Shown piece by piece: positions 7,822 to 30,120 of a DNA stretch of 34,287 nt. The stretch is from contig JAJPKD010000032.1 in the NCBI GenBank assembly GCA_021323895.1, forward strand, positions 1-34,287, in the 5' to 3' direction. Source of the DNA: Acidobacteriota bacterium (lineage in GTDB: Bacteria; Acidobacteriota; Blastocatellia; Pyrinomonadales; Pyrinomonadaceae). A program made the translations under genes and the position numbers. Every line of letters starts with the position of its first letter. Position 1 is the first letter of the stretch. The notes under the pieces were generated by a model, which worked only from the letters and a program-made list of their open reading frames with translations, was not told where the DNA came from and made no database searches.

Positions 7822-8352
7822 CTACGCTTTCTTGCGGCGAGCGCGCGAACGCTTTCCGGCTTCTGCTAGATCCTTCAGACGATCGGGTTGGGCTGCCGAT
7901 CCTTTTTCTTCAATCTCAACCATCAGCGGTTCAAACTTCGAAGCATTCACCAAAAGGCCGGTGCCTTCCGCGGTCGGTCTAACTTTCGAAATCAAAACGC
8001 GACTGATGCGGCGAGGAATCAGCAACGGCGCGACCGTGGCTGCGGATTCCGCCAAAGCAACGATATCGCCACCACCACGCCAGTGTTCGCGTACGACCAG
8101 GTCATCCGTGCGATCAATCAAGCGAAGCAATGTGAGCGAAATCAGAAACAGGTCGTCGATTTGGCCGACAAACGGAATCATGTCAGGGATGAAATCGAAC
8201 GGGATGATCGCGTAAATCAAGGCCGCGGCGAACAGCGCGCGCTCAGTACGCGGCACGCGCGAATCAACCATCAGACGCGCCGTCAGCGCCACCATGTTCG
8301 GCAGGAACATGAGCAGGTTCTTCATGCGGCTCTTGAGTTCGAGTTTGGACAT
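7822..8352 (-). CDS. YkvA/DUF1232 family membrane protein
   Basis: A 176-residue protein with the DUF1232 signature IPFDFIPDMIPFVGQIDDLF near residues 52-72, flanked by hydrophobic stretches (MLMFLPNMVALTARLMV, LFLISLTLLRLI). DUF1232 proteins are small, probably membrane-associated proteins of unknown biochemical role. The C-terminal third is soluble and ends in a very basic tail (GKRSRARRKKA) that could contact nucleic acid or acidic lipids. The ATG at 8350-8352 is followed immediately upstream by an array of 7-nt repeats (8355-8375) that occupies the place of the leader, and no clear ribosome site is seen. It is convergent with mqnC. Confidence 0.85.
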   Translation of the reverse strand: MSKLELKSRMKNLLMFLPNMVALTARLMVDSRVPRTERALFAAALIYAIIPFDFIPDMIPFVGQIDDLFLISLTLLRLIDRTDDLVVREHWRGGGDIVALAESAATVAPLLIPRRISRVLISKVRPTAEGTGLLVNASKFEPLMVEIEEKGSAAQPDRLKDLAEAGKRSRARRKKA

Positions 8353-8354
8353 GG

Positions 8355-8375
8355 TCAGTTGTCAGTGGTCAGTTG
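8355..8375. repeat. Heptamer array, 3 units (TCAGTTG family)
   Basis: Three contiguous 7-mers, TCAGTTG TCAGTGG TCAGTTG, lie directly upstream of the DUF1232 start codon. A second array of the same family lies in opposite orientation at 8499-8526, so the two enclose about 120 nt of the intergenic region. This resembles the short tandemly repeated repetitive (STRR) heptamers described in cyanobacteria. Confidence 0.75.
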
Positions 8376-8498
8376 CAAATACGTCTTGCCGGGCGCTTAG
8401 GTTCTAAAACCTTCTTGAAAGAGTCTAGTCGAGTGGCAAAGCTGCGGCAAGCTTCCGGCCTTTGGCGACTCATGATAAATTTGCGCCGCTCTTCATAG

Positions 8499-8526
8499 CA
8501 ACTAACAACTGACTACGAACTACTGA
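8499..8526. repeat. Heptamer array, 4 units (inverted TCAGTTG family)
   Basis: Four 7-mers (CAACTAA CAACTGA CTACGAA CTACTGA) end just before the GTG start of pta at 8533. On the reverse strand they read TCAGTAG TTCGTAG TCAGTTG TTAGTTG, the same family as the array at 8355-8375. They replace the expected ribosome-binding region of pta. Together the two arrays could pair as a long imperfect stem. Confidence 0.75.
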
Positions 8527-8532
8527 CAAACC

Positions 8533-9543
8533 GTGTCCATTCTTGATCAAATTCGCCAACGCGCAGCCTCAAACCCGCAGCACATCGTTCTTCCCGAAGG
8601 CGAAGACCCGCGCACTGTAGTCGCCGCGAGCGACGCAACACGACAGAGAATCGCCCGCATCACCGTTTTGGGTGACGAGGAAAAAGTGCGCGACGCAGCG
8701 CGACAATCGGGCGCGGACCTGGGCGGCGTTGATTTGATCGATCCGAAGCGTGCCAATGATTTCGAGAAAATGGTTTCGCTGCTCTACGAAGCGCGGCGCG
8801 CCAAAGGCATGACGCTCGATGAAGCGCGAACGGCTCTACGCGATCCGCTGTACTACGGAAATCTAATGGTGCGCGATGGCCGAGCTGATGGATCGGTTGC
8901 CGGCGCCACTAACACGACGTCGCACACGGTGCGGGTGGCGTTGCACTGCATCGGCGTGCGCTCCGGATTCAAATTGGTTTCGAGTTTCTTTTTGATGGCG
9001 CTGCGCGATGCGAGCATCGGCGAGAACGGCGCGATGATTTACGCGGACTGTGGAGTCGTAATCGAGCCGAGCGCCGCTGAGTTGGCTGAGATCGCGATTG
9101 CTTCGGCGGATTCATGTCGTGCGTTGCTGGGCGCAGAACCGCGCGTCGCGATGCTTTCGTTCTCAACCAAAGGATCAGCGAAGCACAAATTGATCGACAA
9201 AGTGGTCGAAGCGACTCGCACAGTCCGCGCGCGTGCGCCCGAACTTGAAATCGACGGCGAGTTGCAAGCCGACGCCGCGCTCGTGCCGATCATCGCCCAA
9301 TCAAAAGCCCCCGGATCGGCAGTAGGCGGTCGCGCCAACGTCTTGATCTTTCCCGATCTCCAGGCCGGAAACATCGCTTACAAATTGACTGAGCGGCTTG
9401 CGGGCGCGACGGCGATAGGTCCCATCCTGCAAGGCCTCGATCGACCAGCCAACGATCTTTCACGGGGCTGCAAGGCCGAAGACATCGTGGACGCAATCGC
9501 CATTACCGCGGTCCAGGCCCAGGCGCGCAAAGCTTCACCATAA
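8533..9543 (+). CDS. pta: Phosphate acetyltransferase
   Basis: Phosphotransacetylase interconverts acetyl-CoA and acetyl phosphate in acetate metabolism. The 336-residue protein is the short, single-domain form without the N-terminal DRTGG/P-loop region of the long E. coli type. Visible family segments are [11 protein letters not shown] near the start, [47 protein letters not shown] and [10 protein letters not shown], followed by [20 protein letters not shown]. The start is GTG at 8533 with no good Shine-Dalgarno; a heptamer repeat array ends 6 nt before it. No acetate kinase gene is adjacent, so the partner enzyme must be encoded elsewhere or be absent. Confidence 0.94.
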
Positions 9544-10786: not shown

Positions 10787-10802
10787 CGTTAGCTGGCTAA
10801 CG
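10787..10802. other. Short perfect inverted repeat at the end of the HD-GYP gene
   Basis: CGTTAGC and GCTAACG form a perfect 7-bp stem with a 2-nt spacer and overlap the last codons and stop of the response regulator gene. There is no following U-tract on the minus strand, so it is at best a weak terminator or 3' end stabiliser. Confidence 0.3.
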
Positions 10803-11919
10803 CACTTAGTTGCGGCTCGGCGGCCGGCGTAATTGATTGCCACTCGGCTTCGTTCGGTTTGCGTTCCAGTGATTTCCGTCGCAATTCCTCCCAATCCTCA
10901 GGCGGCACGCGATGAAAAGCTTCGACAACCTTTGGATCGAATTGCCGGCTCGCCCATTCGTCCAATTCCTTCGCGGCGGCTTCATACGAGCGCCCTTGAC
11001 GATAGACCCGATCGCTGGTGATTGCGTCAAAAGCGTCGGCCACCGAAAAGATGCGCGCGCAAATATCGATCTCTTCACCTTTCAAGCCCAACGGATAACC
11101 TGAACCGTCCCACTTCTCGTGATGCTGCGCCACCACGCGTGCGGCGCCTTCGAGGAATTTTATTCCGCGCAGGATTTGCTGGCCGTGTAGCGGATGCTCG
11201 CGCATGCGGATCCACTCTTCGTCGGTTAGCTTTGCCGGTTTGCGGAGGATCGCATCAGGGACACCAATCTTGCCGATGTCGTGAAGTAGCGAGCCGAATT
11301 CCAGTGCCTTCATCTCAGCGCTGCTCAAGCCATATTCACGGCCCAGACGCAGACTGAAAGTAACCACGCGTTCTGAGTGTCCGTGAGTTTCGGCGTCGCG
11401 TGTTTCAAGTGCCGCAGTCAGTGCTTTCAAAGTCGATCGATACGCGTTCTCAAGTGAGCCCAGTGCGTCATCAAGTTCGGCGGTGCGCTGGCTGACCAAC
11501 TCTTGGAGATGATTTTCGTAACGACGCTTGGCAACGATCAGATCGTGATGTTCCAACGCGCGCTCGACTGCAGCTTCTGCCTGACGAAGATCGAAGGGCT
11601 TCATCAAGTAATCGAAAGCGCCCAACCGCAGCGCATTGATGGCGCTCTCGATCGTTTGCATTCCGCTGATCATCACTATGACTGTGTCAGGCGAGATGAC
11701 CTTGACATGAGGAATCATTTCCAACCCACTCATGCCGCTCATGGTGATATCGCTGATCACAAGCTGGTAATCGCTGGCGCGAAGCTGGGCAAGCGCGTCT
11801 TCGGCGGACGAGGCTTCTCCACATTCGTACGAGAACGAAAGCAGATCGTGCAAGACGCCGCGCACTTCAGCTTCGTCATCGACAATTAAGAGTCGGGGCT
11901 TAGCGATGGCTTCGGTCAT
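10789..11919 (-). CDS. Response regulator with HD-GYP output domain (cyclic-di-GMP phosphodiesterase type)
   Basis: A 376-residue two-domain signalling protein. The receiver domain covers about residues 8-122 with the acidic pair in LLIVDDEAEV, the phospho-acceptor Asp57 in VISDITMSG, and the switch Lys in MKPFD. A coiled-coil linker (ENHLQELVSQRTAELDDALG) follows. The HD-GYP domain has HD at 213-214 (LLHDIGKIGVPD), EHPLHGQQIL and HHEKWDGSGYP at about 266-276, so the metal ligands and the GYP motif are intact. RpfG-like proteins of this layout hydrolyse cyclic-di-GMP and so affect motility and exopolysaccharide production. No cognate histidine kinase is adjacent. An EPS cluster is present elsewhere in the window, but a link is only conjecture. 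A short C-terminal extension beyond the domain carries no motif. Confidence 0.93.
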   Translation of the reverse strand: MTEAIAKPRLLIVDDEAEVRGVLHDLLSFSYECGEASSAEDALAQLRASDYQLVISDITMSGMSGLEMIPHVKVISPDTVIVMISGMQTIESAINALRLGAFDYLMKPFDLRQAEAAVERALEHHDLIVAKRRYENHLQELVSQRTAELDDALGSLENAYRSTLKALTAALETRDAETHGHSERVVTFSLRLGREYGLSSAEMKALEFGSLLHDIGKIGVPDAILRKPAKLTDEEWIRMREHPLHGQQILRGIKFLEGAARVVAQHHEKWDGSGYPLGLKGEEIDICARIFSVADAFDAITSDRVYRQGRSYEAAAKELDEWASRQFDPKVVEAFHRVPPEDWEELRRKSLERKPNEAEWQSITPAAEPQLSALAS

Positions 11920-19177: not shown

Positions 19178-19205
19178 GAGCTAAGAGGTAAGAGCAAAGA
19201 GCTCA
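19178..19205. repeat. Heptamer array, 4 units (GAGCTAA family)
   Basis: GAGCTAA GAGGTAA GAGCAAA GAGCTCA form four contiguous 7-mers just upstream of the S4 gene start. A further, more diverged unit (GGGAAGA) may follow. The array at 19236-19256 reads as related heptamers on the opposite strand. Confidence 0.65.
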
Positions 19206-19235
19206 GGGAAGAAGCATTATGATCATTAATTACGC

Positions 19236-19256
19236 TGCTCTTCGCCCTTTGCTCCT
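19236..19256. repeat. Heptamer array, 3 units (TGCTCTT family, inverted partner)
   Basis: TGCTCTT CGCCCTT TGCTCCT are three contiguous 7-mers that end 8 nt before the 3' end of the ppiC-like gene. On the reverse strand they are AGGAGCA AAGGGCG AAGAGCA, similar to the array at 19178-19205, giving an inverted pair of arrays around a 30-nt centre. Confidence 0.6.
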
Positions 19257-19264
19257 TGCCGTGG

Positions 19265-20377
19265 TTACGGCTTTGGAAAAATGCCGAGGATTTTGCCTTT
19301 GCCTTTGTCCTGTTTCGGTGGCTTTTTGGTCGCTGCCGCCGGTGGCACGATCTTCAACAGAGGCTCGACTTGGTCTTTGTAGCTGTCGGCAATCTTGATG
19401 TAAGACTCGTTGCGCAAACCCTGCAAATAATCCTCGCGCGCTTTTTGCGACCGCTCTTCGGTCATAGCGCCGCGGACATCGTTCTCGTTGAACGTCGGCG
19501 TGTTGCTGCCGGCCGTGCGATTGTCCACGCGGAGAATTTGATAGCCTTCGTCGGTCTTCAGAGGATTGCTGACGCCGCCGGCCTTCACGTCCTTGACCGC
19601 GCCGGCGATGTCCGGCCGCAGATCGGGAACGCGAAACAGTCCAACCTTGCACGGCTTCTGGCCATTCTGCGCGGTCCGCTCTGAGTATGCCGCTGCCAGC
19701 GTGCAAAAGTCCGCGCCGCCGCGCACCTGCTTCACCAATTCATCGGCGCGCGCTTTCACATCTGCTTCCTGCTTTCCTGCGAGGCCGAGAAAAATTTCCG
19801 AGAGCTCTACGGATTCAGGTTTGAAGAACTTGTCCTTGTGTGCGTCGAACTACTTGCGCAGCTCGTCAACGCTGAAACCGTAGAAGAGTTTCGAATCGAC
19901 TTCGCTTTCCATCACGGCCTGTTTCATGATCTCGATCCGCATCGTTTGCCGCGTGCCGGTGGGGTCCAGGCCGGCCTCACGCATGGCTTGATCAAGTTTC
20001 TCGATTGAAGTAATGCCATTTTCTTTCGCGACGGCCAGCATTCGCTTGTTGACTTCGTCTTCGACACGCTGCGTCAGATCGAGTTCCTTGCCTTTCTGCA
20101 AAAGGAGCTGCTCGTTAATCAGCGTCGCGATCAATTCGGCTTTGTGCTTGTCAACTTCGGCGTTGGCCTGGGCCTCCGGCATGCCGTTTTGCTTCAAGGT
20201 ATCGACGCGCTCTTTCATCTCGCGCTTCAACTGTGAAAGTGTGACGATGCCGTCGCCCACCTGGGCGATCACTTCATCGACGACGACTGGTTCGCCTTCC
20301 TGCGCGCGCGCCGGTGACGGGGAAACGAAGCAAGCTGCGAGCACAGCCAGCAGGGCAAGGGCTAATTTGAATTTCAC
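19265..20377 (-). pseudogene. PpiC/SurA-type peptidyl-prolyl isomerase gene interrupted by an in-frame TAG
   Basis: A single frame of 371 codons is broken by TAG at 19850-19852 (codon 176); the ORF track gives the two halves as 19850-20377 and 19265-19759. The GTG start has AAGGAG upstream and a signal peptide follows (LALALLAVLAACFVSPSPARA). The first half is a SurA-N-like chaperone region (VVVDEVIAQVGDGIVTLSQL). The second half holds the parvulin domain (SVELSEIFLGLAGK, ADFCTLAAAYSE, GYQILRVDN). The junction reads DELRK-stop-FDAHKDKFF, where homologues typically have KKYYDAHKDKF, so a Tyr codon TAC or TAT mutated to TAG fits exactly. Periplasmic folding of outer-membrane proteins is the family role. 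The gene starts 69 nt after mfd ends. Nonsense mutation or sequence error is likely; readthrough cannot be excluded. Confidence 0.83.
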
Positions 20378-25490: not shown

Positions 25491-25560
25491 CGGATGGAAA
25501 ACTAAATTGTAAGGGCGCAAATCGTAAACGGCAAAAGGTTGTGACCAGGACTGACTTCGC

Positions 25561-25683
25561 GTCAGTACCGCGAGCGATAGCGAGCGGATCATGGTTCGCG
25601 TCGGTACCGCGAGCGATAGCGAGCGGATCAGGAGGGTCCTTCAAAACTCACTTGATCCCATCGCAATCGCTCCGGGTACTGAC
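25561..25683. repeat. Inverted-repeat element with a duplicated left arm, between rfaE2 and lysS
   Basis: The left arm occurs twice in direct order (25561-25590 GTCAGTACCGCGAGCGAT... and 25600-25629 GTCGGTACCGCGAGCGAT..., about 39 nt apart). A diverged right arm (25654-25683) runs in reverse and ends CGGGTACTGAC. Total length is 123 nt, close to the 122 and 125 nt of the two related elements. It fills most of the divergent leader region shared by rfaE2 and lysS. Confidence 0.8.
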
Positions 25684-25735: not shown

Positions 25736-25763
25736 TATTAGTCAATTACCATTTACTATTCAC
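25736..25763. repeat. Heptamer array, 4 units, just before lysS
   Basis: TATTAGT CAATTAC CATTTAC TATTCAC are four contiguous 7-mers that end 6 nt before the likely lysS ATG, occupying the ribosome-site position. The reverse strand reads GTGAATA GTAAATG GTAATTG ACTAATA. Confidence 0.65.
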
Positions 25764-25769
25764 GGATTC

Positions 25770-27644
25770 ATGACCGTACCTTTTATCGAACAGAATGATC
25801 AGACCGTCGCGTGCCACGAACATCTCGAGGCTCTGCGCACGCTGGTTGGCAACGTCTATCCAAACAAATTCAAGCGCAGCAACGTGACGGAAACCGTGTC
25901 TGGCGAAGACACGATCACTTCGATTGTCACCGCGTTTAAGAAGCACGAGCCGCAGGTCCAGGAAGGCGAAAAGCCTTCCGCAGAAGTGCTGGAATCCGCC
26001 AATAAGGAATTGAATAAGATTCGCGTGCGCGTCGCGGGACGCATCGCCGCGCCGGCGCGCGTGATGGGAAAAGCCGCGTTTCTGCATCTGTCTGATGGCG
26101 GCTCGCGTCTGCAAATTTATTTGCGCCGCCAGGACATTGTCGGCGTGCGCAACAATGCAGATGGCGGTGAAGTCGATGGTTGGGAGTTATTCGGGCTGCT
26201 CGATCATGGCGACTATATCGGAGTCGAAGGGTTTCTTTTCGTCACCAAGACTGGCGAGCTGTCCGTGCACGCCGAGAAGTTGCAGTTCCTCGCAAAAGCA
26301 CTCTTGCCCATGCCGGACAAGATGCATGGCATCAACGATCCTGAAATTCGCCAACGGCAACGCTATGCGGATCTAATCGCGGGTAGTTTGAAGCTCGAAC
26401 GCGATGCGAACGATCTGACGCCGCGCGAAGTCTTCGAGTTGCGCTCGAAAGTGATTCGCGAGATTCGGCGCTTTCTCGATGAGCACGGCTACATCGAAGT
26501 CGAAACGCCGATGCTGACGCCGTTGGCAACCGGCGCCGCCGCGCGTCCGTTCAAGACGCATCACAACGCGCTCGACATCGATCTCTTCGCACGCATCGCG
26601 CCGGAACTTTACTTGAAGCGCCTGACCGTCGGCGGCTTTGAAAAGGTTTACGAGCTGAATCGCAACTTTCGCAATGAAGGCATCTCAACCAAGCACAATC
26701 CCGAGTTCACGATGCTCGAATATTACTGGGCGTATGCCGACGTGAACGACATGATGGACCTGCACGAAGAGATGATGCGGTCGGTTGTGTACACAGTGCT
26801 GGGCCATACCCATGTTAGCTACGGCGATTACGACATCGACTTCTCACAGCCGTTTCAGCGATTGAGAATGAAAGAAGCCATCATCAGGTATCAACATGAA
26901 AAATGGCTTGGTCAGCCCAACCCGATCGAGTTGAGTGGCGGAATTGATCCGATGATGTTGGGAGATTTTCATTACGCCGTCGCGCTAAGCAATTTTGTTG
27001 AAATGATTCCGGGTCTTGTTCTTTCTCTGTATCCAGGCCGAACTCTAAAAGAGATGCTTGAAGGAGAGAGAATAGGTAGTGAGGAGGAAACCAAGTTCTG
27101 GATTGGTGCGCGACGGAACTCAGAGAAAGTCGCCTTGGGCATGGAAACTTTGCCGCCGGATCGGATGGATTCCATCCTCGCAGGATCAATTGCAACAATC
27201 TTCGAGTATGTCGCGGAACGCCATCTAATTCAGCCGACCTTCATTACCGATTTTCCGAAACCAATCTCGCCGTTGTCCAAAGCTTCACCATCCGATCCTT
27301 CAGTCGCGGAGCGCTTTGAATATTTCGTCGGCGGCTTGGAATCGGCCAACGGCTTTTCTGAATTAAACGATCCGGAGGAGCAGTACCAACGCTTCAAGGA
27401 TCAGATGCTTGCGCGCGAGCGCGGTGACGAAGAAGCGATGGTCATGGATGAAGATTACATTCGGGCGCTGTCTTACGGGATGCCGCCGGCGGCCGGCATC
27501 GGCGTCGGCATCGATCGTCTGGTGATGCTGCTGGCAAACAAGCATTCGATTCGCGACGTGATTCTGTTTCCGCACATGCGGCCGGAAAGAACAGAAGGCA
27601 GTAAGCAGAAGGCAGAAGGCAGCGAGCCTTTGGCAGGATCGTAG
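25770..27644 (+). CDS. lysS: Lysyl-tRNA synthetase (class II) with extra segments
   Basis: This class IIb synthetase charges tRNA-Lys. I start it at ATG 25770 ([20 protein letters not shown], 624 residues); the TTG start in the track lies inside a repeat array. The OB-fold anticodon domain ([20 protein letters not shown]) is followed by the catalytic core with motif 1 near [11 protein letters not shown], motif 2 [20 protein letters not shown] and motif 3 [13 protein letters not shown]. The protein is more than 100 residues longer than the usual 500. Part of the excess lies between residues about 375 and 468 ([20 protein letters not shown] onward), where E. coli LysS has a much shorter loop; another part is near residues 35-75. 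The C-terminal tail ([19 protein letters not shown]) is encoded by heptamer repeats. The active-site motifs are intact. Confidence 0.92.
27594..27621. repeat. Heptamer array, 4 units (GAAGGCA family), in the 3' end of lysS
   Basis: GAAGGCA GTAAGCA GAAGGCA GAAGGCA form an exact 7-nt period and encode part of the dispensable-looking C-terminal tail of lysyl-tRNA synthetase ([10 protein letters not shown]). Confidence 0.75.
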
Positions 27645-27727
27645 TTCTGTCAGAAGCCCGACCGTGAGGGAGGGCATGACGCGACTACTAACTTTTGACG
27701 GAAAGTGATTTTTGGGGGAACACGACT

Positions 27728-28839: not shown

Positions 28840-28961
28840 GTGTCAGTACCGCGAGCGATAGCGAGCGGATCAAAGAGACTGTTATCAGTAGCGGTTCTAA
28901 CTAGATGAGGTTTTGGTTGAATCGTCATGTATCCGCTCGCTATCGCTCGCGGTACTGACAC
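28840..28961. repeat. MITE/BIME-like element with perfect 31-bp inverted arms
   Basis: The left arm 28840-28870 (begins GTGTCAGTACCGCGAGCGAT) and the right arm 28931-28961 (ends CGCGGTACTGACAC) are perfect inverted copies over 31 bp and flank a 60-nt centre. Total length is 122 nt. It lies in the 269-nt gap between the NTF2-like gene and the Ycf48-like gene and encodes nothing evident. It is the cleanest copy of the family also seen at 22926 and 25561. No transposase is nearby. Confidence 0.88.
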
Positions 28962-29001: not shown

Positions 29002-30120
29002 TTACTTCAACTGCGGCGCGTTCGCCTCGCCATACCTCAAGAGCGTCCCACCGAAGCCTACAGCCCAGCCAGGTTTTCGATCGACAAAGAAGAGTCGTTG
29101 TAAGGGGTGCGAGGTGGTGGCCGATTGAGAGAGCCAACGCGCGCCGCCATCGTTTGTATGCAACAGCAGGCCTTCGTTGCCAATGGCCCAGCCTTCGTTC
29201 GGATCGACGAACTTTACATCTAGCAGATCAGCATCGACATTCGATCTTTGCGCGAACCAGGTGCGGCCGCCATCGATCGTTTTGAAGATGCGTCCCGCTG
29301 TACCGACGGCCCATCCTAAATTGTTCGTGGCAAAGCTCGCTGCGGTGAACCGAACATTGGCGTCGTCGCGGATGATCCCGGTCTGCCAATTCGTGCCGCC
29401 GTCACTGGTTTGAATGATTGTCGCGCCAGCGCCGACCAGCCAGGCATGCGCGTAGTCGATGTATGCACCGCCGAGCAACAGGTGCTTTGTTGGTGAAGCT
29501 TGTCGCAGCCAATGCTCGCCGCCATCGCGTGTAGTGAACACAATTCCAGTTTCGCCAAACACCAGGCCGTGTTGACTGTCGGCAAAAATCGCGCGGACTA
29601 ACCGCACGTTCACGTCACCACTTCTAAAAAAGACTCGCTGCCAACTGAAGCCTGCGTCTTCGGTCTTCAAGAGATAGGATCGCGGCTCGTCGTTAGTTCT
29701 TAGTTTGAGCAGATCGCGTTCGACGACCAGCCAGCCAACATCTTCACTCGCGAAATAGGCATCCAGTAATGTGTCGCGGCCCAGGGCTGCGATCTTTTTC
29801 CAACTCTCACCGCCGTCGGTCGTGCGTAGCAGCGTGCCGTTGCTGCCGGCGACCCAGCCGCGATTTTGATCGAGAAAATAAACCGAGCGGAGCCAGGCCA
29901 TTGTGCCTGAAGGTTGTTTGGTCCAGGTGGCGGCTGAGGCAGTGAGCAGTGAGCAGTGAGCCGTGAGCAGAATTAGCAATAGACTGAAGAGTGAAAGCCT
30001 CGCGCCGAAGGTGCGAAATAAAATAGCCAGGGGCAAGCGCGTAGCGCGCAGCCCCTGGAAACAGGAACCCAAAATACGTCTGCGCCCCTTTTGGGGCGCG
30101 ATGAACGATTCTTTACGCAT
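29002..30120 (-). CDS. Ycf48/HCF136-like BNR beta-propeller protein, probably exported
   Basis: A 372-residue protein made of six or seven BNR/Ycf48-type blades with the repeat form GW.VG..G.ll.T.DGG..W (for example GWVAGSNGTLLRTTDGGESW, GWAVGTAGRIFKTIDGGRTW, GWAIGNEGLLLHTNDGGARW). Ycf48 assists photosystem II assembly in phototrophs, but non-phototrophic bacteria carry many relatives of unknown role. It is the last gene of the exopolysaccharide cluster, so a part in the envelope is likely. The only ATG is at 30120, but residues 1 to about 45 are coded by palindromic repeats (APQKGRRRI, GLRATRLPLA). The hydrophobic export signal (LFSLLLILLTAHCSLLTASA) is partly coded by a heptamer array. The true start may be a downstream TTG. 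Confidence 0.82.
   Translation of the reverse strand: MRKESFIAPQKGRRRILGSCFQGLRATRLPLAILFRTFGARLSLFSLLLILLTAHCSLLTASAATWTKQPSGTMAWLRSVYFLDQNRGWVAGSNGTLLRTTDGGESWKKIAALGRDTLLDAYFASEDVGWLVVERDLLKLRTNDEPRSYLLKTEDAGFSWQRVFFRSGDVNVRLVRAIFADSQHGLVFGETGIVFTTRDGGEHWLRQASPTKHLLLGGAYIDYAHAWLVGAGATIIQTSDGGTNWQTGIIRDDANVRFTAASFATNNLGWAVGTAGRIFKTIDGGRTWFAQRSNVDADLLDVKFVDPNEGWAIGNEGLLLHTNDGGARWLSQSATTSHPLQRLFFVDRKPGWAVGFGGTLLRYGEANAPQLK
29941..29968. repeat. Heptamer array, 4 units (AGTGAGC), inside a signal-peptide coding region
   Basis: AGTGAGC AGTGAGC AGTGAGC CGTGAGC occupy 28 nt. On the minus strand they encode LTAHCSLLTA of the Ycf48-like protein's signal sequence. Because 7 is not a multiple of 3, successive units are read in different frames. 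Confidence 0.8.

Follow-up and report, generated by a model that had tools for sequence, protein, structure and literature searches.

Why should tandem arrays share a repeat step of seven nucleotides but not a sequence, and why should they gather at the edges of genes? The question is raised by the window, a 34,287-nt stretch of DNA that makes up the whole of contig C317 in the draft MAG of a soil bacterium, 4.40 Mb in 322 contigs (G000). The named relatives of its lysS gene are MAGs from Blastocatellia and Pyrinomonadaceae, Acidobacteriota, and an Rfam search of the window returned tRNA only. Gene prediction relied on a simple dicodon finder made by the author. Rates for G000 are based on 439.5 kb of contigs chosen by number, without regard to content, and an independent validation set comprises 80 loci from other genomes.

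Heptamer arrays and their period

Heptamer arrays had been listed at seven positions in the initial annotation, and all seven are present, four of them recovered by TRF (8354-8375, 19178-19203, 27592-27622 and 29939-29970). The remaining three (8499-8526, 19236-19256 and 25736-25763) fall under the TRF threshold, the first two being inverted partners of stronger arrays. The pta hairpin has a 5' G-rich arm of three GTCAGTT/GTCAGTG units (8354-8375, minus strand; TRF and segment score), which lies 1 nt off the start codon of a DUF1232 gene (7822-8352, minus strand) and has orthologous arms in G002, G006 and G004. Its 3' C-rich arm, CAACTAA CAACTGA CTACGAA CTACTGA (8499-8526, plus strand), stops 6 nt 5' of the GTG start of pta, the phosphate acetyltransferase gene (8533-9543, plus strand; PF01515, TIGR00651), and other genera carry arrays of other units in the same slot. 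The second pair joins a left arm of GAGCTAA/GAGCAAA units (19178-19206, plus strand; TRF) to a degenerate right arm, CTCTTCG CCCTTTG CTCCTTG (19236-19262, plus strand), which adjoins a PpiC-type rotamase gene (19265-19759, minus strand); folded as single-stranded DNA, this pair is weak (z -1.1).

A decayed ATTTACC-type array (25736-25763, plus strand), weak when taken alone, lies 6 nt 5' of the ATG (25770) of lysS, which encodes lysine--tRNA ligase (25770-27644, plus strand); orthologues of this array before lysS are clear at loci L093, L105, L110, L121 and L123, and also in G001, G004 and G014. The 3' end of the same gene carries a G-rich GCAGAAG array (27592-27622, plus strand; TRF), and over 27592-27644 this heptamer array is translated as the C-terminal tail of LysS. 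A similar tail is found in G004 and none at the end of the protein in G002 and G014, while the lysS of G006 has another heptamer hairpin (TTTGGAC) 3' of the stop codon. LysS also holds, at residues about 380-472 within its catalytic domain, a segment of some 95 residues common to G000, G001, G011, G010, G023, G018 and others and without counterpart in G004, G002, G006 and G014, close relatives included. The last array of the window, of GCAGTGA units that are C-rich on the minus strand (29939-29970, plus strand; TRF), is located upstream of the likely start of a YCF48-like gene, and full GTGAGCA hairpins occupy the orthologous gap in G002 and G006.

Lag-7 autocorrelation over the whole window is unremarkable (0.248), with the codon lags 3, 6 and 9 dominating, so the lag-7 excess is a local one. 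The genome-wide excess over lags 6 and 8 that the initial annotation had called for is found: the segment score yields 22 lag-7 arrays in the 439.5 kb of G000, from which 19 loci chosen for the word TGACNAC were excluded, as they were from all G000 frequencies, beside 4 at lag 6 and single arrays at lags 8, 5 and 10. Stricter local clusters number 16, 2 and 1 at lags 7, 6 and 8, and a third-order Markov simulation at these stricter settings produced zero lag-7 clusters. The corresponding array counts at lags 7, 6 and 8 are 33, 15 and 4 for G006 (400 kb) and 23, 8 and 5 for G002 (398 kb). In a 3.2 Mb sample of Acidobacteriota loci, which takes in the 19 loci chosen for TGACNAC, lag 7 accounts for 315 arrays, beside 60 at lag 6, 33 at lag 8, 3 at lag 5 and 2 at lag 10. 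Nostoc plasmid DNA (750 kb, namely one megaplasmid and 50 kb of a second plasmid) shows 28 lag-7 arrays versus 5 at lag 6 and 6 at lag 8, and 100 kb of E. coli K-12 contains zero lag-7 arrays. The lag-6 excess is coding: all 78 lag-6 arrays of the validation loci lie inside genes.

That unit length never differs, as had been asserted, holds in the window; outside it, octamer intergenic hairpins of the same build, for example with CGCAAAGG units, occur about one-tenth as often as heptamer ones. In the validation set, 18 of 24 octamer arrays have an inverted partner, and 17 of 17 octamer hairpins have their G-rich arm on the 5' side. Since the octamer class has the same architecture, a strict counter of seven, the mechanism proposed in the initial annotation, is unneeded; the step is seven and, less often, eight. 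Octamer hairpins with CGCAAAGG or CTTTTTCA units were seen at L102, L109, L129, L143 and other loci, with a polarity like that of the heptamers.

The Acidobacteriota set contains 134 distinct array units, among which TCA/TGA and GTCA are enriched, and 15 of the 28 Nostoc arrays use a word that occurs in this set, compared with 15% of random Nostoc heptamers. Unit words are not arbitrary. G-skew was considered as a special property of the units and rejected, random intergenic heptamers being at least as skewed as array units; the orientation of the units alone is special. A Nostoc-like GTCATTA/GTCATTT heptamer array was also noticed in two Yersinia ruckeri plasmids (NZ_CP025802.1, 19940-19981; NZ_CP133441.1, 30040-30081), where the gene overlying it carries an LPD29-domain annotation.

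Pairing, polarity and placement at gene edges

Lag-7 arrays are intergenic in 18 of 25 cases in the unselected G000 sample (where about 9% of the bases are intergenic), in 29 of 33 in G006 and in 18 of 23 in G002. The enrichment at gene boundaries that had been anticipated is borne out: 59 of 93 arrays come no further than 10 nt from an ORF edge, where 22.9 were expected. A role at ribosome sites or start codons as the common theme is not supported. Stop codons have 86 arrays at a distance of 10 nt or less and start codons 46, of which the start-edge part may owe something to the gene caller (it tends to set starts after stop-rich arrays) and the stop-edge part is far less exposed to this bias. 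Because the arrays adjoin stops more often than starts, they are not a ribosome-site device.

Instead of standing alone, most arrays are paired. The TGACNAC pattern has 74 matches in the G000 genome, against 4 for a reversed-pattern control, and minus-strand matches are followed by plus-strand ones some tens of bases further on. An inverted partner in the same gap was found for 83 of 108 intergenic arrays, a count that retains the 19 TGACNAC-chosen loci of G000, compared with 9 in a direct-orientation control. The proportion is 89 of 125 in the independent set (direct-repeat control, 15) and 186 of 314 when gene calls are dispensed with (control, 28). The inverted pairs noted at two loci of the window are real, and they represent the rule and not an oddity. 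Seven G000 hairpins folded as single-stranded DNA gave z values from -3.5 to -8.7. Arms most often consist of four or five units (82 and 67 of 223 arms), and the loops of the TGACNAC family are non-homologous and range from 2 to 154 nt.

The two arms also follow a fixed order, G-rich at the 5' side and C-rich at the 3' side, in 109 of 124 hairpins defined without gene calls (p 9e-19). With gene calls this order is seen in 74 of 80 hairpins of the first set, among which the 19 TGACNAC-chosen loci of G000 are again counted, and in 79 of 88 of the independent set. An artefact of the gene caller, acting through in-frame stops in one strand, was rejected as the source of the polarity, which persists without gene calls and in hairpins whose units are free of stop codons on both strands (17 of 21). 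Neighbouring TGACNAC arm pairs read minus then plus in 25 of 25 cases. Broken down by gap type in the first and the independent set, the polarity holds in 4/4 and 4/5 convergent, 6/6 and 4/6 divergent, and 62/70 and 58/64 co-directional gaps. In 72 of 80 and 66 of 75 arrays the G-rich strand points away from the ORF closest to it, in all gap orientations, whereas G exceeds C at only 54-59% of array-free gap edges. Being independent of the direction of transcription, the polarity rule points to DNA and not to mRNA. The Nostoc sample showed no polarity (5 of 10).

Conserved slots and candidate explanations

G000 and G006 belong to one genus, with a median protein identity of about 69% over all reciprocal best hits. 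Among 56 orthologous gaps, few as a basis for slot statistics, all six that bear an array in G000 hold one in G006, which has 11 in total. The array at 29941 in the window is probably a seventh such case, overlooked owing to a gene start placed too far upstream. The unit family is kept in four of the six shared gaps and differs in two. All 77 nt of the L031 gap align between two species without a single gap, rare unit variants included. At L049, CGTAAAT stands against AGATTTC, both arms having changed together, in gaps of 101 and 99 nt, and three species have three different units at L048. Over longer distances, 12 of 20 genomes have an array in the pta slot, whose units fall into at least five families across genera (TGACNAC, TCACTTG, TGAAAAC, ATTCATC and TTAAATG); for the lysS slot the figure is 9 of 26, with several families. 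At a response regulator gene with an HD domain (10789-11919), array-free in the window, an array occurs in 1 of 26 genomes, an illustrative contrast given that these three slots were not blindly chosen.

The arrays are thus arms of intergenic inverted repeats, or hairpins, which have one arm or both near an ORF edge, be it a start or a stop, are inherited at fixed slots and have an exchangeable word; when the word is replaced in both arms together, the step of 7 nt is retained along with pairing and polarity. The initial annotation was right in what it observed and partly so in its interpretation; it had overlooked that hairpin pairing is general, that the hairpins have a strand polarity and that the slot is conserved as the unit changes.

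What would be kept, on a reading of these sequences to which we give a little under an even chance, is a structure instead of a sequence motif, namely a strand-asymmetric hairpin that repeats in steps of 7 nt. A mechanism acting at the DNA level is thought most likely. A putative factor would bind or process the hairpin, tolerating many words and requiring a G-rich/C-rich pair of arms with a 7(-8)-nt step; new words might occasionally enter both arms when templates are switched or arrays recombine, and the array would be halted by coding sequence at the ORF edge. Sequence alone cannot tell selection by a protein from replication chemistry as the origin of the hairpins.

Several results count against this structural reading. 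The free N position of TGACNAC matches across paired arms in only 27 of 97 cases, and arms from the same locus resemble each other no more closely than arms from different loci (0.812 versus 0.821), for which reason neither base-by-base selection for pairing nor recent copying between arms is seen in this family; that the arms are fold-back copies of each other was rejected for TGACNAC on the latter figures. Divergent gaps place the two arms in different transcripts, the Nostoc sample is without polarity, within-genus cases of the same slot with a different unit are few (the two of six above), and no candidate protein was found. A broader proposition, that bacteria possess a general class of intergenic hairpins whose maintenance depends on period (7 nt, at times 8), polarity and pairing and not on sequence, in long-conserved slots where the word is swapped in both arms, is regarded as rather doubtful. 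If true, it would imply a putative factor or a process of replication or repair that reads a 7-nt step and is common to distant phyla.

The arrays might alternatively be a functionless by-product of mutation, in which polymerase slippage with a 7-nt preference acts on hairpin-prone intergenic DNA, coding selection confines the products to gaps, and arrays persist since nothing removes them. This is a possible account that we consider distinctly less probable than not. It draws on arrays that are long and homogeneous, such as (CTTCTGA)x10 at L029 (1566-1638) and (CTGACAA)x10 at C236, and on the relation of array counts to genome size (rho 0.45), and slippage does occur in families other than TGACNAC. 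In TGACNAC, which is the largest family, two units side by side have the free base in common at 0.315, against 0.366 in within-arm shuffles, which supports for this family the earlier statement that simple slippage is not at work and argues against contingency microsatellites; units of the same arm are somewhat more alike (0.41) than those of different arms (0.33). The equal likeness of arms within and between loci, the modal arm of four or five units and the gap-free L031 hairpin speak against slippage as well, and slippage alone predicts neither inverted pairing nor polarity. The hypothesis that G-poor heptamers before start codons are leaders bound by S1 or cold-shock proteins in place of a Shine-Dalgarno (SD) site, as MacGregor proposed for TAACTGA, is an improbable one for these arrays. 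Start-proximal arms are indeed G-poor and end a few nucleotides 5' of the start, an SD-like 5-mer occurs at 1 of 41 array-fronted starts, the figures for all genes being 86 of 351 and 73 of 336, and the Beggiatoaceae repeats are placed alike (PMC4679880). The leader idea explains the start side, not the more frequent stop sides or the convergent gaps, which have no start and nevertheless hold arrays of unchanged polarity; where relatives lack the array at pta or lysS, moreover, the leaders are ordinary ones.

Non-autonomous mobile elements of the REP/REPIN kind, moved by a RAYT (Y1) transposase, would likewise be palindromic, intergenic, multicopy and near ORF ends, most relatives carry RAYT genes, and across 60 genomes RAYT counts rise with array counts (rho 0.47). 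Both counts track genome size, however, and within the family the correlation is not significant (rho 0.25, p 0.13), so that RAYT as the driver was rejected as confounded. The arrays have no fixed sequence, tag or conserved palindrome, their loops are non-homologous, and genuine REP-like families of G000 look quite different, all of which renders this origin very unlikely. Less credible still are bidirectional intrinsic terminators: hairpins are somewhat more frequent in co-directional gaps (12.4% versus 7.3% and 9.0%), but a T run follows the C-rich arm in 8 of 110 cases, against 4 of 110 on the other side, and in divergent gaps the arms lie close against start codons. For terminators, REPINs and G-quadruplexes alike, the arrays lack a trait that defines the class.

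Two REP-like palindrome families, often in inverted pairs, are present in the window itself (25556-25630, 27656-27675, 28842-28863 and 28938-28959). GTCAGTACCNNNAGCGNTAGCG has 133 matches in the genome, with 0 for the reversed control, and GCCCGACCGTNAGGGAGGGC has 95, with a control of 0. Copies of GTCAGTACCNNNAGCGNTAGCG flank a fragment of a Y1-transposase (RAYT-like) gene at G000:C88:408-578, and the two families look like a REPIN/RAYT system in Acidobacteriota. As for the hairpin nuclease SbcCD, its SbcD component scores above the curated cut-off in 6 of 60 relatives, whose array counts are 30, 18, 1, 0, 1 and 0, beside a median of 18. Loss of SbcCD as a permissive factor is not significant (p 0.11) and was kept as a lead only. 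The relatives concerned are G038, G039, G042, G046, G050, G054 and G007. In the family of G038, the single SbcD-less genome has 1564 TGACNAC matches and the four with SbcD have 0-1; the absence of SbcD is a possible lead on hairpin tolerance.

Comparison with known heptamer repeats

The STRR sequences of Calothrix and Nostoc are intergenic, multicopy repeats of 7-nt tandem units, with several words per genome. The arrays described here share all of these features, and the likeness to STRR drawn by the initial annotation proves apt in view of the lag-7 excess of the Nostoc plasmids and the words that they have in common with the Acidobacteriota set. STRR2 (TTGGTCA), in its reverse-complement rotation AATGACC, is among both the Acidobacteriota and the Nostoc array units; of the published STRR words, this one occurs among the units, most of which are other words. 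The present set has more than 100 words, with pairing and fixed polarity as the rule; in the Nostoc plasmid sample, 15 of 33 arrays are paired and polarity is absent.

The existence of cyanobacterial STRR heptamers is cited by Rehm et al. (2015, PMC4692102), who described GGGNATC/GGGGAYT repeats in Xanthomonas and Nostoc with a four-unit preference, intergenic between aligned ORFs and in some cases forming inverted repeats. These repeats sit near the ORF on the 5' side of their G-rich strand, regardless of how that ORF is oriented, and were attributed to G-quadruplexes (PMC4692102). A G-rich strand directed away from the near ORF and a preference for four units (here a mode of 4-5) are shared. 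In contrast to the Rehm repeats, most units here contain no GGG, their G-rich strand having two or three G, and hence lack the four G-tracts. G-quadruplex formation is not needed for the placement rule, because units mostly without GGG obey the same rule.

The TAACTGA repeats of Beggiatoaceae lie before start codons at which SD sites are rare, in forward orientation, with an inverted repeat found once (MacGregor 2015, PMC4679880); a single unit word is involved, and related heptamers are rare (PMC4679880). Common ground consists of the heptamer unit, the intergenic location, the adjoining start codons and the rarity of SD sites there, whereas the present arrays comprise 134 units instead of a single forward word, occur in pairs and favour stop over start edges. 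Mrazek et al., as cited by MacGregor, found heptanucleotides to be the commonest repeat category (PMC4679880). For Geobacter metallireducens, the relevant passages of PMC2700814 describe multicopy tandem heptamers, GGACCGG and MTYCTGA, drawn as fold-back strands and annotated as regulator binding sites or RNA elements; CTTCTGA is an array unit here as well (the L029 array at 1566-1638), and those passages contain no study of slot or unit evolution.

The kind of repeat is therefore already known. No paper on a many-word hairpin rule, on slot conservation with word replacement or on the extension to Acidobacteriota was found in the open-access literature, and these three aspects appear to be new. 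Earlier explanations were made case by case, invoking G-quadruplexes in Xanthomonas, translation leaders in Beggiatoa and regulator sites in Geobacter; a single rule of placement and polarity across 134 words argues that such explanations miss a common cause, and turns "why seven?" into a testable question.
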